From Pedobacter aquatilis (GTDB lineage: Bacteria > Bacteroidota > Bacteroidia > Sphingobacteriales > Sphingobacteriaceae), in NCBI RefSeq assembly GCF_030409415.1, contig NZ_JAUFPW010000030.1, forward strand, positions 62,001 through 126,000: 64,000 nucleotides of DNA, in the 5' to 3' direction. Shown in pieces: positions 52,210-57,416 of the stretch (position 1 is its first letter; each line of letters opens with the position of its first letter). Below the pieces are notes generated by a model. That model searched no databases and was not told the origin of the DNA. It saw nothing but the letters and a program-made list of their open reading frames with translations. A program made the position numbers and the translations under genes.

Positions 52210-52977
52210 CTAACCCTTGAATTCTTTCATAAAACTACTCACACTTTCTTCTAAATTTCCATCAGCAATTGCCTTAACAAAAGCAGTTCCGATAATGGCT
52301 CCGTTAGCATAAGTACAAGCCTTATCGAAAGTTTTCTTATCACTAATGCCAAAACCAATCATGGTTGGGTTTTTCAGATTCATATTTTGAATGCGGCTGA
52401 AATATGTTTCCGTTGTATCGCCTACCTCCAGATTTTTACCAGTTGTAGCTGATGATGACAGTAAATAAATAAATCCATTTGTTAAACCATCAATTTTATG
52501 AATACGTTCTTCGGCCGTTTGTGGCGTAATTAGAAACACGTTGCTTAAATTATGTTCCTCAAAACATGTCTGGTAAAATTCTTCGTACTCAACCATTGGC
52601 AAATCGGGCACGATGCAGCCATCTACCCCTACTTCTGCACAAGCTTTGCAAAAATTTTCTACACCAAATTGCAAAACCGGATTTACATAACCCATCAATA
52701 AAACAGGTATGGTAACGTTTTTACGCAAATCTTTTAACTGCTCAAAAAGCAATTTTAAGTTCATGCCTTGGTCTAAAGATTTCTTGCTGCTGGCCTGTAT
52801 CACAGGACCATCGGCAACTGGGTCTGAATATGGAAAACCAATCTCAAGCATATCTGCACCCGACTTTTCCAAAGCTTCTGCAATTTGAATGGTATCGCCT
52901 AAGTTAGGATAACCAGCGGTGTAATAAATCGATAATATATTTTTCTTCTGTTGGAAAAGTTGTTTAATTCTGTTCAT
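52210..52977 (-). CDS. trpA: Tryptophan synthase alpha chain
   Basis: This 255-residue TIM barrel cleaves indole-glycerol-phosphate to indole and glyceraldehyde-3-phosphate. The signature LEIGFPYSDPVADGPVIQAS holds the catalytic Glu and Asp. VDGCIVPDLPMVEYEEF and the phosphate loop GFGISDKKTFDKA are intact. It is the last gene of the trpD-trpF-trpB-trpA run, separated from trpB by about 80 bases that carry an interspersed repeat. Indole would pass directly to TrpB in the complex. Confidence 0.97.
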   Translation of the reverse strand: MNRIKQLFQQKKNILSIYYTAGYPNLGDTIQIAEALEKSGADMLEIGFPYSDPVADGPVIQASSKKSLDQGMNLKLLFEQLKDLRKNVTIPVLLMGYVNPVLQFGVENFCKACAEVGVDGCIVPDLPMVEYEEFYQTCFEEHNLSNVFLITPQTAEERIHKIDGLTNGFIYLLSSSATTGKNLEVGDTTETYFSRIQNMNLKNPTMIGFGISDKKTFDKACTYANGAIIGTAFVKAIADGNLEESVSSFMKEFKG

Positions 52978-53060: not shown

Positions 53061-54242
53061 TTATAAATTAAAATATTTAATGTAAGTATCTAAATCTTTA
53101 TCGCCTCTGCCAGAAAGGCAAATCACTACATTTTCGCCGCCTTTAAATTCCATTTTCTCTAGATAAGCCAAAGCGTGTGCACTTTCAATTGCCGGAATGA
53201 TACCTTCTAATTGAGTAAGCAATAAGCCTGCATCCAAACTTTCCTCATCGGTAATGGAAACATATTTTCCACGGCCTGTTTTAAATAAATGCGCATGTTG
53301 CGGACCAATGCCAGGATAATCCAAACCAGCTGAAACAGAGTGTGGCTCTACCACTTGCCCGTCTTCGGTTTGCATTAAAATACTTCTACTACCATGTAAA
53401 ACGCCTTCTTTACCTAAATAAGTTGTGGCCGCAGAAAAGCCACTTGATACGCCCTTGCCAGCAGCTTCTATAGCAACAAGTTTTACATTTTCATCTTCCA
53501 TAAAATGATAAAACATACCCATTGCATTACTTCCACCACCTACACAAGCCAAAACATAATCGGGTTGGTCGTTTCCGGTTTGCTCAATTAATTGTTTTTT
53601 AGTTTCTTCTGAAATGATGGATTGAAAAATCGCCACCATATCCGGATAAGGATGTGGACCAACCACCGAACCAATGATGTAATGCGTATCTACCGGATTG
53701 TTAATCCAATCACGCATAGCTTCGTTGGTTGCATCTTTTAAAGTTTTACTACCAGAACTTGCCGGAACAACCTTTGCGCCCAACATTTTCATACGGGCAA
53801 CATTTGGCGCTTGTCGCTCGATATCTACCTCGCCCATGTAAATTACACATTCCAGGTTACGTAAGGCACAAACGGTTGCGGTTGCAACACCATGCTGACC
53901 TGCACCGGTTTCGGCAATGATTCTCTTTTTACCTAACTTTTCTGCCAGTAAAATCTGGCCGATTGTATTGTTAATTTTATGTGCACCGGTATGGTTTAAG
54001 TCTTCCCTTTTGAGGAAAATATTAGCGCCATATTTTTCTGATAACCTGTTTGCCAAATACAATGGCGAAGGGCGACCAACGTAATCTTTTAGTAACTGAT
54101 GAAATTCCTTTTGAAAATCGGCATCATCAATAATCTTAAAGTAGTTTTGACGCAATTCCTCTACGTTCGGGTACAGCATCTCCGGGATGTATGCTCCACC
54201 AAAATCTCCGTAATATCCTTTTTCGTTTACTTTGTATTTCAT
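53061..54242 (-). CDS. trpB: Tryptophan synthase beta chain
   Basis: The 393-residue PLP enzyme joins indole and serine to tryptophan. It has [20 protein letters not shown] at the start, the PLP lysine in [20 protein letters not shown] (near residue 87), [20 protein letters not shown], the phosphate-binding [15 protein letters not shown], and [14 protein letters not shown]. It is the standard TrpB1 type. It follows trpF after a 330-base spacer with three hairpins, so its link to the trpD-trpF transcript depends on read-through. Confidence 0.98.
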
Positions 54243-54257
54243 ATTTTTTTAATTATC

Positions 54258-54309
54258 CATTGGTTGAAGCCAATGGCCGTTTTATTTACCCATGATTGAA
54301 ATCATGGGT
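54258..54309. repeat. Pair of adjacent palindromes ahead of trpB
   Basis: CCATTGGTTGAAGCCAATGG and ACCCATGATTGAAATCATGG (one more T closes it) are two hairpins ten bases apart. Their twin structure is like REP-type units moved by Y1 transposases, but no such gene is in the window. Confidence 0.55.
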
Positions 54310-54468
54310 TATTTTTCAACCAATATTTCGCCACTTAAAATTCCATCCTGCTAAGCCTTACCACAAAATCTTCGTTCTACTCAAATCCGGCCTAATAAAT
54401 TTTTCGGAAAACACTGTCCGAGCCAAAGTACAAACTTCAAAAGAAAAATTTTCAGCCGGTGTTTTTTG

Positions 54469-54512
54469 TTTCTTTTTGACATCAAAAAGAAAGAAGCCAG
54501 TCCGGCCAGGAC
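54469..54512 (+). repeat. Palindromic repeat TTTCTTTTTG, copy 2
   Basis: TTTCTTTTTG / CAAAAAGAAA with a 4-nt loop is followed by GAAGCCAGTCCGG and preceded by GCCGG, the same layout as 41413-41450. Confidence 0.7.
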
Positions 54513-54572
54513 AAAACAAAATCTAAATCCTCTCCCTACCCCCTCAAAAGGGTGATGGCATGATTGCAGAAA

Positions 54573-55208
54573 CTATCTTCTAATTTCCTTTACAAACTCT
54601 ATAACCTTTTCCACATTTTTAAAACCAGGTTCAATTTCAAATCGGCTATTAATATCTAAAGCATACAATCGCTCATCTTTAATTTCATTTATTGAAGCAG
54701 CATGTTCCAAATCAATGCCTCCACTTAAAAAGTAAGATTTATCTAAGCGATATTGTTTTAAAATTTGCCAATCGAAAGTTTTACCCGAACCACCATGTGC
54801 TTTTGTTTTAGTATCGAATAAAAAGTAATCAACTGCTGCTACATAAACATCCAAAATGCTGAAATCAAAATCTTCATCGAGTCCAAAAGCTTTAATCACT
54901 TCCAAATCATTGAAATTATCTTTCAATTGCTGGCAATAATCTGGTGTTTCATTTCCATGCAACTGAACAGCTTTTAGCTGATGAAATTTTACCTTTTGCT
55001 TAACGGTTTCCAAATCCTCATTCACAAAAACACCAACCGTTTTAATTTCTGCCGGAATATATTTTATCAGCTCTGCTGAAACATCACTTATAAAACGTGG
55101 CGATTTATCATAAAATATAAAGCCTAAATAATCGGGTTGCAGCTCAGCAATTGCTGCAATATTCGCTGCGAATTTCATCCCACAAATTTTTAATTTTAAC
55201 TGATTCAT
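54573..55208 (-). CDS. trpF: Phosphoribosylanthranilate isomerase
   Basis: This 211-residue TIM barrel isomerises PRA to CdRP in tryptophan synthesis. KLKICGMKFAANIAAIAELQ carries the catalytic Cys, PDYLGFIFYDKSPRFI follows, and FLFDTKTKAHGGSGKTFDW has the catalytic Asp and phosphate-binding Gly run. FLSGGIDLEHA and ALDINSRFE close the barrel. Its ATG overlaps the trpD stop by one base (TAATG), so it is translationally coupled to trpD. No trpC lies between them, unlike many trp operons. Confidence 0.97.
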   Translation of the reverse strand: MNQLKLKICGMKFAANIAAIAELQPDYLGFIFYDKSPRFISDVSAELIKYIPAEIKTVGVFVNEDLETVKQKVKFHQLKAVQLHGNETPDYCQQLKDNFNDLEVIKAFGLDEDFDFSILDVYVAAVDYFLFDTKTKAHGGSGKTFDWQILKQYRLDKSYFLSGGIDLEHAASINEIKDERLYALDINSRFEIEPGFKNVEKVIEFVKEIRR

Positions 55209-56194
55209 TAAGCCACCAATTTTTTAAAGCTTTCCAAGGCTTTTTTACTTACTAAAGATTCTTCTGCTTCGTAAAAACAATCGGCAAATGTGGCCGTTGG
55301 CTTAATGGTTTTTATGGCCAAAGCAGAATTACACAACACTACATTATTCTGCACATCAGTTGCTTCGCCATTTAAAACATCCATAAATATTTTTGCTGAT
55401 GATTCTACGGTATCGCCTCCTTTAATTTCGTTAACCGAAACCCTTTCAAAACCCATATCATTTAAGGTTAAAATGCTTTCTCCTTTGTTATTAAAGGTTT
55501 TTACATCGCAGGTTAACGATATTTCATCATAACCCTCAAGCGCATGTACAATGGTATAATTCTTTGTTGTATCCTGATATAAATAATTATAAAGACGTGC
55601 CAACTCTAAACTGAAAACACCTACCATTTGATATTTAGGTTGAGAAGGATTTACCATCGGACCCAACATATTAAAAAAGGTTTTTATACCTAAATCTTTA
55701 CGGATTGGCGCTACAATTTTCATTGCCGGATTAAACAATGGCGCATGCAAAAAGCAAATTCCTGCATCATCCAAATTACTTTTCAAAATACTTTGGTCGT
55801 TTGTAAAATTATAACCCAAATATTCCATCACATTAGAAGAACCACAACCCGAAGAAACGCCATAGTTACCATGTTTAGCCACTTTATGTCCGGTGCCAGC
55901 AACCACAAAAGATGAAAGTGTAGAAATATTAAATGTATCCTTTCCATCGCCGCCCGTACCGCAAAGGTCGATTAATTCGTAATCTGCAAAATCAGTTTTG
56001 ATACCCAAATCCAACATCGCGTCTCTAAAACCTTGCAATTCATCAACCGTAATATTACGCATGGCATAGGCGGTAATAAATGCGGCAATTTGCGATGAAT
56101 TAAATTCGCCCTGCGTGATAGAAATAAGGATGTTTTTTGCTTCTTCCCTGCTAAAACTCTTATTTTCAAATAAATGGTTTAATATCTTTTTCAT
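55208..56194 (-). CDS. trpD: Anthranilate phosphoribosyltransferase
   Basis: From the ATG at 56194 the product has 328 residues. It transfers ribose-5-phosphate from PRPP to anthranilate. LIDLCGTGGDGKDTFNISTL has the PRPP-binding GTGGDG motif, HGNYGVSSGCGSSNVMEYLG follows, and GICFLHAPLFNPAMKIVAPI then RKDLGIKTFFNMLGPMVNPS complete the core. The ORF can be extended upstream to 56320, but that part reads through the terminator of the leader and is rejected. It is the first structural gene after the attenuator, and trpE and trpG are not in the window. Confidence 0.97.
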   Translation of the reverse strand: MKKILNHLFENKSFSREEAKNILISITQGEFNSSQIAAFITAYAMRNITVDELQGFRDAMLDLGIKTDFADYELIDLCGTGGDGKDTFNISTLSSFVVAGTGHKVAKHGNYGVSSGCGSSNVMEYLGYNFTNDQSILKSNLDDAGICFLHAPLFNPAMKIVAPIRKDLGIKTFFNMLGPMVNPSQPKYQMVGVFSLELARLYNYLYQDTTKNYTIVHALEGYDEISLTCDVKTFNNKGESILTLNDMGFERVSVNEIKGGDTVESSAKIFMDVLNGEATDVQNNVVLCNSALAIKTIKPTATFADCFYEAEESLVSKKALESFKKLVA

Positions 56195-56207
56195 TTTAAT
56201 GTTTATC

Positions 56208-56277
56208 ATTCCGTTTCGTGAGGACACGAACCGAGGCGTTGATATAAGTTGATGCTGAAATAAATTCAGCATGACAA
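56208..56277. repeat. Two small palindromes between attenuator and trpD
   Basis: TTCGTGAGGACACGAA and ATGCTGAAATAAATTCAGCA (closing with one more T) form two hairpins in the mRNA between the attenuator terminator and the trpD start. They resemble dispersed repeats elsewhere in the window and could affect read-through or translation. Confidence 0.5.
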
Positions 56278-56285
56278 TTGCGCAT

Positions 56286-56317
56286 AAAAAAAGGATTGCT
56301 TTTTGGGCAATCCTTTT
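56286..56317 (-). terminator. Attenuator terminator of the trpDFBA transcript
   Basis: On the minus strand AAAAGGATTGC / GCAATCCTTTT forms a perfect 11-bp stem with loop CCAAAAA and a T-run of seven, about 90 bases ahead of trpD. No minus-strand gene precedes it other than the trp leader ORF, so it is a premature terminator within the trp leader. Confidence 0.85.
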
Positions 56318-56353
56318 CATCGTTTATAAAATATTTTAAAATATATAACAATA

Positions 56354-56362
56354 GAATTTGCC
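56354..56362 (-). promoter_or_regulatory. Putative antiterminator strand of the trp leader
   Basis: GGCAAATTC on the minus strand begins at the last base of the leader stop codon. It can pair with GGATTGCC of the terminator 5' arm (8 bp with one bulged A), which would prevent the terminator from forming. A ribosome at the leader stop codon would cover it. Confidence 0.6.
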
Positions 56363-56415
56363 TAACGAATTTCGTTATGCCACCACCAATTGTTATTTAA
56401 GTTTTTAATTATCAT
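56362..56415 (-). CDS. trpL: trp leader peptide with three consecutive Trp codons
   Basis: The ATG at 56415 opens a 17-codon frame ending in TAG: MIIKNLNNNWWWHNEIR. The three TGG codons (56380-56388) are consecutive, and Trp is otherwise rare. They are placed 5' of a 7-bp hairpin (56363-56377), an antiterminator strand and a terminator ahead of trpD. This is the arrangement of ribosome-mediated attenuation known from the enterobacterial trp operon: stalling on the Trp codons when charged tRNA-Trp is scarce would free the antiterminator strand, while quick reading to the stop codon lets the terminator form. The ORF is too short to stand on length alone, and its confidence comes from the Trp run together with the RNA layout. 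No clear Shine-Dalgarno is seen, as is common in this group. Confidence 0.8.
   Translation of the reverse strand: MIIKNLNNNWWWHNEIR
56363..56377 (-). promoter_or_regulatory. Leader hairpin (1:2 type) directly after the Trp codons
   Basis: The 15 bases form a perfect palindrome with 7-bp arms, TAACGAA and TTCGTTA. The 5' arm begins three bases after the third Trp codon, so a ribosome stalled there would melt it. Confidence 0.6.
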
Positions 56416-56426
56416 GTTTGTATTAA

Positions 56427-56434
56427 CAAATATT
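56427..56434 (-). promoter_or_regulatory. Candidate -7 box for the trp leader transcript
   Basis: On the minus strand AATATTTG has one mismatch to TAnnTTTG, and a TTG lies about 20 bases upstream. It would start transcription very near the leader ATG. The divergent KirBac gene starts 40 bases away. Confidence 0.3.
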
Positions 56435-56474
56435 GATATAGTTTTTTATAATTCCAAAATCTTTCTAAAAATAT

Positions 56475-57416
56475 ATGGCTTTCTTTAAAAGAAAAGTACA
56501 ATTTAATGATGATTTAGGTTTCGGCTCTGTACCCGTTATCAAAAATCAACGCGTTTTAAATACAGATGGCTCTCCAAATATTGAACGTACAGGCTTGCCC
56601 TGGTTTAAATTTGATGATACTTACACCCGTTTGGTTACTATGAGTTGGCCACGTTTTTTCGCCGTAATATTAATTGCATACCTTATTGTTAATACACTTT
56701 TTGCAATTGCGTATAATATTATTGGCATCGAAAATTTAAATGGCGCAAATGGTTTAACCCTCCGCGACCAGTTTTTCGACGCCTTTTTCTTTTCGGCCCA
56801 AACCATTTCTACAGTTGGTTATGGCCATATTTCTCCCCAAGGCTTTATTACCAGTGTACTTGCTGCTTTTGAAAGTATGTTGGGCTTGTTGGCCTTTGCC
56901 TTAGCTACAGGATTACTTTATGGTCGTTTCAGCAGGCCAACATCGAAGGTATCTTTCAGTAAAAAAATGGTTATTGCACCTTATAAAAATCAAACAGGGT
57001 TAATGTGCAGGCTGGTTAATTTAAGACGAAATTCGCTTATTGATATTGAAGTACAAATGTTTATGACCTTTAACGAAACTGTTGATGGCCAACTCAAACG
57101 CAGCTTCTATCCACTTGTTTTGGAAAGAGATAAAATCAGTGTACTCTCTTTAAACTGGACGCTTGTGCACCCCATAACCGAAGATAGTCCACTTTTTGAA
57201 AAAAGCTTAGCAGAGCTAAAAGTTGCTGAAGTAGAGGTTTTTGTAATTTTAAAGGCTTTCGACGATACCTTTGCCCAAACAATACATGCCCGAACCAGTT
57301 ATCAGGATGAAGATATTGAGCGAAATGCCAAATTCGAAATTATGCATTACCATAACGAACAGGGTAAAACTGTGCTGGATTATAGTTTATTGGATAAAAC
57401 CAAACCCACGAATTAA
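56475..57416 (+). CDS. Inward-rectifier potassium channel (KirBac type)
   Basis: The 313-residue channel has two membrane helices (WPRFFAVILIAYLIVNTLFA and FESMLGLLAFALATGLLYGR) around a pore loop with the K-selectivity filter TVGYG in FFSAQTISTVGYGHISPQGF. The C-terminal half is the immunoglobulin-like cytoplasmic domain of Kir channels (MFMTFNETVDGQLKRSFYPL, WTLVHPITEDSPLFEKSLAE). It passes K+ ions, and prokaryotic relatives respond to lipids and pH. It is divergent from the trp leader, with the two transcripts starting within about 60 bases. Confidence 0.93.
   Translation: MAFFKRKVQFNDDLGFGSVPVIKNQRVLNTDGSPNIERTGLPWFKFDDTYTRLVTMSWPRFFAVILIAYLIVNTLFAIAYNIIGIENLNGANGLTLRDQFFDAFFFSAQTISTVGYGHISPQGFITSVLAAFESMLGLLAFALATGLLYGRFSRPTSKVSFSKKMVIAPYKNQTGLMCRLVNLRRNSLIDIEVQMFMTFNETVDGQLKRSFYPLVLERDKISVLSLNWTLVHPITEDSPLFEKSLAELKVAEVEVFVILKAFDDTFAQTIHARTSYQDEDIERNAKFEIMHYHNEQGKTVLDYSLLDKTKPTN

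Follow-up and report, generated by a model that had tools for sequence, protein, structure and literature searches.

Upstream of trpD, in a genome that resembles Pedobacter, lies a short stretch in which a run of Trp codons is followed by two hairpins. This raises the question of whether the trp genes here are controlled through a ribosome translating the leader and, if so, whether such a switch was already known for this lineage. We argue that the leader is very probably a ribosome-mediated transcription attenuator of trpDFBA, a reading based on its parts, their conservation and covariation, and folding under simulated ribosome positions.

Leader parts and gene layout

The window, i.e. the whole 64,000-nucleotide stretch that was analysed, belongs to a 99.5%-complete Pedobacter-like genome (G000; 4.63 Mb, 36 contigs), and its TrpD is 96% identical to the nearest TrpD from a named Pedobacter species. 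The features of the locus are as follows.

56427–56459 (minus strand): predicted sigma-A-type promoter, TTTTG at 56459–56455 and −7 box AATATTTG at 56434–56427 with a 20-base spacer (sequence, conservation, published consensus)
56362–56415 (minus): leader ORF of 17 codons, MIIKNLNNNWWWHNEIR, ATG at 56415, stop TAG at 56364–56362 (sequence; a WWW ORF is shared by the window and 79 of 80 related loci)
56380–56388 (minus): three Trp codons, the control codons (sequence; nine columns invariant in 48 aligned leaders)
56363–56377 (minus): hairpin 1:2, TAACGAAATTCGTTA, 6 bp with a 3-base loop (folding, alignment)
56354–56362 (minus): antiterminator strand GGCAAATTC, whose first base is the last base of the stop codon (sequence, covariation, folding)
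56286–56318 (minus): intrinsic terminator AAAAGGATTGC-CCAAAAA-GCAATCCTTTT with a T tail (sequence, conservation, folding)
56251–56275 (minus): imperfect palindrome GTCATGCTGAATTTATTTCAGCATC after the terminator and ahead of trpD, a dispersed repeat (the stretch around it has 18 more partial matches in the genome)
55208–56194 (minus): trpD, anthranilate phosphoribosyltransferase, ATG at 56194 (TIGR01245, 294 bits, cut-off 199)
54573–55208 (minus): trpF, phosphoribosylanthranilate isomerase (NF002298, 168 bits, under its own cut-off of 215)
53061–54242 (minus): trpB (TIGR00263, 586 bits, cut-off 392)
52210–52977 (minus): trpA (TIGR00262, 230 bits, cut-off 102)

The genes thus follow the leader in the order trpD-trpF-trpB-trpA, and we infer that the four are co-transcribed; for trpF, TrpF or TrpF fusions make up all 13 of the families matched. 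The trpF–trpB gap (54243–54572) is 330 bases long, holds two neighbouring palindromes (CCCATGATTTCAATCATGGG and CCATTGGCTTCAACCAATGG) and has no ORF of at least 80 aa. Upstream of its start, the trpD frame runs on without a stop to a further ATG, at the terminator's foot (370-aa ORF, 55208–56320), and a gene caller choosing that ATG would blur the leader. The dispersed repeat at 56251–56275 probably lies outside the switch.

The 17-codon WWW ORF, the strand at the stop codon, the terminator and the trpD start all lie on the minus strand where the original prediction had placed them; its first hairpin, given there as 7 bp, folds as 6 bp around a 3-base loop. The terminator stem consists of 11 Watson–Crick pairs and one G-U, followed by the U tail, and its 5′ arm, GGATTGCC, is also able to pair with the antiterminator strand. 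This pairing had been proposed and is indeed possible: the GGCAAATTC/GGATTGCC duplex is worth −7.3 kcal/mol, as against −15.6 between the terminator arms. The parts do not look like products of chance. The leader folds at −33.3 kcal/mol, compared with −19.9 (SD 3.3) in dinucleotide shuffles, i.e. 4.1 SD lower, with none of 200 shuffles as low. A short ATG ORF with TGGTGGTGG occurs once in the window, with the terminator behind it, while 200 first-order Markov windows yielded three such ORFs, none of them with a terminator.

Conservation and covariation

TrpD relatives gave 389 loci, the best 80 of which were used; we term these the Pedobacter group, though three (L065, L071, L074) carry other names. 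A WWW ORF precedes trpD in 79 of the 80, and the exception (L010, from the same MAG as L020) is a contig cut: the contig begins 204 bases before trpD, with Trp codons and terminator there and the ORF start missing. By a strict rule, 78 of the 80 loci have the terminator, L068 and L074 being missed; by a looser one, it is present in all 79 loci with a leader and in the window. The residues flanking the Trp run split into two groups, a NLNNNWWWHNEIR type and a NGLNNWWWHNAIA type. Terminator and trpD are separated by anything from ~5 to ~400 bases across the Pedobacter group (L002–L081), a spread perhaps due to repeat insertions.

The leader extends well beyond the genus. A covariance model built from 48 leaders (R1) has matches at E 0.01 in 130 of the family's 151 genomes. 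We fetched 40 matches, mostly the best per genus plus weaker second matches. Thirty are leaders immediately ahead of trpD-trpF that have two or more Trp codons in a stretch of three, and 24 of these carry WWW; they come from 18 genera besides Pedobacter. Six more lie before trpE, and the remaining four (L156, L175, L179 and L180, with L179 on the genome's own contig C18) were rejected as bare terminators without a leader. The raw R1 tally of 21 out of 25 genera overstates this distribution, as 18 genera besides Pedobacter were checked; the fetched match of genus g11 is false, and that of genus g3 (E 0.008) was left unfetched.

Covariation was read from an alignment (A1) of 48 of the 80 leaders, picked by eye with near-identical ones dropped. 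The terminator core pairs in all 48 rows. Columns 67, 115 and 134 read T-A-T in 19 rows, C-G-C in 25 and T-G-C in four, and column 115 (A in the window's group, G in the other) is the partner both of column 134, in the terminator 3′ arm, and of column 67, in the antiterminator; this one base thus pairs in the antiterminator or the terminator by turns. Among the 29 rows of the second group, the His codon is CAT in 12 and CAC in 17, and the base opposite its third position in the hairpin (A or G) changes with it, so that amino acid and pair are both kept; the change is synonymous. Over the antiterminator as a whole, the covariation score is 0.286, compared with 0.212 (SD 0.011) after shuffling, with none of 500 shuffles as high, and 88.5% of its cells are paired, as against 17–54% after sliding by one to three columns. 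Against this, one slid control has three pairs with two-sided changes where the real antiterminator has two, and the covariation events that are independent of each other are few, mostly one between-group difference. The antiterminator register of the two groups also differs by one base in the upper part (the bulged A in the window's group), so that the two top pairs are scored as unpaired in 16–18 rows of that group; read in their own register, they are paired in 19 of 19.

The same genome carries trpE, trpG and trpC on another contig (C22), apart from trpD; the best model for TrpE, trpE_most, scores 422 bits, under its own cut-off of 518, while TrpG and TrpC each pass a cut-off. Upstream of trpE (L084:2468–2615) lies a second leader, MIKNTHTWLWQGNSKQNCAGCV, with a GC-rich terminator and a fold z of −5.7. 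A W-x-W leader precedes trpE in all 30 Pedobacter trpE loci (the best 30 of 60 genomes), 29 of which have a terminator by rule, and WWW is found before trpE in the six loci from other genera. In an alignment of trpE leaders (A2), 26 taken from 30 that are non-identical, one (L104) has a change compensated in both alternative helices, at a position where the antiterminator of another (L112) has a mismatch. R1 has no match on the trpE leader of this genome, L084, and so gives no support for the idea that duplication produced the two leaders, although it did match trpE leaders in some other genera.

The predicted promoter is conserved along with the leaders. Of the 80 Pedobacter-group trpD leaders (window included), 78 have TTTG at a distance of 5–17 bases upstream of the leader ATG, as do all 30 from other genera; the remaining two of the 80 (L075, L076) have no box at the set distance. 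A TTG 17–20 bases farther upstream accompanies the box in 78 Pedobacter-group and 28 other-genus leaders. Where the consensus −7 box opens with T, the trpD leaders have C or A and, rarely, G. The Pedobacter trpE leaders have the box 6–7 bases before the ATG in 30 of 30, and 24 of the 30 have no TTG at the set spacing. In Flavobacterium johnsoniae the −7 element covers positions −12 to −5 according to the accessible part of PMC6847099, and this spacing gives a predicted 5′ UTR of ~7 bases for the leader ORF in the window and of 1–13 bases overall. Transcription would be expected to start near 56422, ~7 bases before the leader ATG, and the leader ORFs of both trpD and trpE probably begin very close to the mRNA 5′ end. 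For comparison, leaderless cases make up 5.5% of 890 in F. psychrophilum (PMC9723704), and Bacteroides thetaiotaomicron has fewer than 10 bases in ~3.7% of its 5′ UTRs (PMC7366714), as far as the accessible text of both sources goes.

Aligning Pedobacter and its relatives had been put forward as a check, and it supports the original prediction: the Trp codon run is conserved (79 of 80) and the hairpins covary. The pattern that was to speak against the prediction, a terminator kept where Trp codons or ORF are lost, was not seen, as relatives keep the Trp codons; nor was a trpD promoter downstream of 56286, the conserved box being predicted upstream of the leader ORF.

These observations bear on one alternative, that the terminator is constitutive and unregulated, insulating trpD from upstream transcription, with the short ORF there by coincidence. 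T-tailed terminators are common between genes, and the four bare terminators among the R1 matches show that such elements do occur without a leader. The gene upstream of the leader (56475–57416) is divergent, however, so that no upstream unit ends at the leader; relatives keep the WWW ORF and the alternative pairing jointly (79 of 80 loci), with covariation; and the chance control produced the combination of ORF and terminator in none of 200 windows. We regard simple insulation as very unlikely.

Folding with simulated ribosomes

If the leader is an attenuator, it would work as follows. A ribosome would translate the 17-codon peptide while RNA polymerase transcribes the leader. With charged tRNA-Trp scarce, the ribosome would stall on the Trp codons and cover the 5′ arm of hairpin 1:2; GGCAAATTC would then be free to pair with the emerging GGATTGCC, no terminator would form, and trpD would be transcribed. 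With Trp plentiful, the ribosome would reach the stop codon and cover GGCAAATTC, leaving the terminator to form and transcription to end. The separate leader before trpE-trpG-trpC would work by the same logic.

We modelled the ribosome as a 13-base footprint on an RNA ending just past the terminator 5′ arm. In the window, the antiterminator has a probability of 0.97 when a ribosome occupies a Trp codon, whichever of the three it is, 0.00 when the ribosome is at the stop codon and 0.27 without a ribosome. Mean pairing over the full terminator 5′ arm has these values in the leader sets:

Pedobacter-group trpD (80 of 80 scored): 0.26 free, 0.78 stalled, 0.24 at the stop, 0.46 stalled with the middle shuffled
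other-genus trpD (29 of 30 scored): 0.24 free, 0.82 stalled, 0.29 at the stop, 0.44 stalled with the middle shuffled
Pedobacter trpE (29 of 30 scored): 0.36 free, 0.61 stalled, 0.05 at the stop, 0.34 stalled with the middle shuffled
other-genus trpE (6 of 6 scored): 0.39 free, 0.73 stalled, 0.04 at the stop, 0.31 stalled with the middle shuffled

Stalled pairing exceeds that at the stop in all 144 scored leaders; the two of 146 left unscored (L165, L116) have no terminator by the rule, though by eye each has one, displaced or mismatched. The leader thus combines a tandem-Trp ORF ahead of trp genes with an antiterminator and a terminator that exclude each other through one shared strand, and in silico a ribosome on the Trp codons frees the antiterminator while one at the stop masks it, incompletely in many leaders.

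Several results count against the model. Real stalled pairing is equalled by no more than one of 25 shuffles in just 40 of 80 Pedobacter-group and 20 of 29 other-genus trpD leaders, and in just 13 of 29 Pedobacter and four of six other-genus trpE leaders; for the window, stalled pairing over the full arm is 0.66 against a shuffle mean of 0.44, with two of 25 shuffles as high. Residual antiterminator at the stop falls below 0.2 in 46 of 80 Pedobacter-group and nine of 29 other-genus trpD leaders, and the means of 0.24 and 0.29 indicate that masking in trpD leaders is imperfect with a 13-base footprint. In several leaders, including most Pedobacter trpE leaders, ribosome-free pairing is about as high as stalled pairing (0.63 and 0.62 in the trpE leader of this genome). 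Finally, once the full terminator of the window is present, it wins at equilibrium whatever the state of the ribosome, so the model needs kinetic control, as E. coli attenuation likewise does.

Two further explanations would give the ribosome, or the Trp codons, another role. TRAP-like attenuation by a tryptophan-binding protein and repression by TrpR are classical means of trp regulation elsewhere, and with either of them the ORF would be incidental; we consider this highly improbable, as the TrpR and TRAP families (PF01371, PF02081) have no match at E 0.001 in this genome, where controls matched, and the conserved Trp codons would be left unexplained. Equally improbable is a nascent-peptide arrest switch of the tnaC kind, in which the stall would come from the peptide together with Trp and not from a shortage of charged tRNA: the WWWHN core is well conserved in the Pedobacter group, yet the residues flanking Trp vary across genera (WWWHNE, WWWLNE, WWWRCI, WWWQMF, LWWQML, WRWHL), while every one of the 30 other-genus trpD leaders keeps two or more Trp codons in a stretch of three.

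Known attenuators and the split pathway

The reading of the leader as a classical ribosome-mediated attenuator thus agrees with part order, conservation, covariation and ribosome-blocked folding. The original prediction knew of no description for this lineage, and here it fell short: Bacteroid-trp (RF01692) is listed as a probable, non-riboswitch cis-regulatory RNA of Bacteroidetes (Table 1 of Weinberg et al., 2010, PMC2864571, in its accessible part), and the accessible part of a 2019 paper names Bacteroid-Trp ahead of the trp operon of F. psychrophilum (PMC6414381).

At the gathering score, Rfam matches only a tRNA in the window. In a relaxed scan RF01692 matches 56435–56306 with 41.1 bits (E 0.0013 over 351 bases), short of its gathering cut-off of 49 bits, and the leader is therefore filed not as a formal member of the family but as a close relative. 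On the genome as a whole RF01692 finds nothing at E 0.001, a result that, taken alone, would have kept the known family hidden. A match to STnc370 (30 bits, cut-off 54), covering mainly the terminator stretch, was rejected. With Infernal's stricter filters, three of 60 Pedobacter genomes match RF01692 at E 0.001 and none passes the cut-off; across the phylum, 29 of 296 genomes match at that threshold and 27 pass. Of the 29 matched genomes, 27 belong to one single family, and none is from that of the window. A Trp-rich leader is present at each of the 29 sites; the next gene is trpE at 28 and, at the other one, trpB followed by trpE. In the reverse search R1 finds 29 of the 29 sites (E ≤ 0.019), so that similarity in sequence and structure shows in both directions. 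Against this, RF01692 at E 1 finds one of four other-genus trpD loci and none of seven trpE loci in the window's family.

The window leader resembles RF01692 in having an ORF of consecutive Trp codons, a hairpin and a terminator ahead of trp genes in Bacteroidota; it differs in preceding trpD of a split pathway rather than trpE, and the Rfam model stops inside the terminator 5′ arm. It shares the logic of the E. coli trp leader, with Trp codons, a 1:2 hairpin, a 2:3 antiterminator and a 3:4 terminator, although the sequence is not recognisably the same (RF00513 Trp_leader gives 20.4 bits, E 0.043, under a cut-off of 41); in E. coli the operon begins with trpE and has a longer 5′ UTR with a Shine–Dalgarno site.

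For F. psychrophilum there are also reported hints that leader-peptide attenuators precede amino-acid operons (PMC9723704). Those attenuators are likewise of the leader-peptide type in Bacteroidota, but from another lineage, and neither a split pathway nor antiterminator anatomy is described in the accessible parts of PMC9723704 and PMC6414381. Those of PMC4833913, PMC7366714 and PMC8305728 hold nothing on a Bacteroidota trp attenuator. Our literature search found no trp attenuator for Pedobacter or Sphingobacteriaceae, which is weak evidence of absence with subscription journals mostly uncovered. The kind of mechanism is thus already known, classical and catalogued for the phylum, the Pedobacter leader being a relative of RF01692 below its cut-off. 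We found no earlier description of a leader that stays under this cut-off in all 60 Pedobacter genomes, of a split pathway with a second Trp attenuator, or of leader ORFs so near the 5′ end. A catalogued but lightly described Bacteroidota attenuator is hereby extended to a family whose leaders score below the cut-off of the curated model; the antiterminator and terminator anatomy, with its covariation, could be used to widen RF01692; and the split trp pathway has a two-switch arrangement in a genome without a TrpR or TRAP match (E 0.001).

Between the antiterminator strand and the terminator of the trpE leaders, a linker, TCAACCTAAACC (TCAACCAAAACC in some genera), is conserved (e.g. L091, L115, L176; A2), and it lies outside what the attenuator model explains. 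One speculative and rather doubtful scenario is that, when the pathway split, each half (trpE-G-C and trpD-F-B-A) kept or gained its own Trp attenuator, separately tunable through differing Trp spacing (W-x-W and WWW), terminator strength and linker. In this scenario, with both ORFs 1–13 bases from the predicted 5′ end, the control ribosome would load on a near-leaderless mRNA, unusual for a phylum with mostly longer mapped 5′ UTRs, and the conserved C/A-rich trpE linker would be an additional, unrecognised layer. A different palindrome lies between the trpE leader and trpE.
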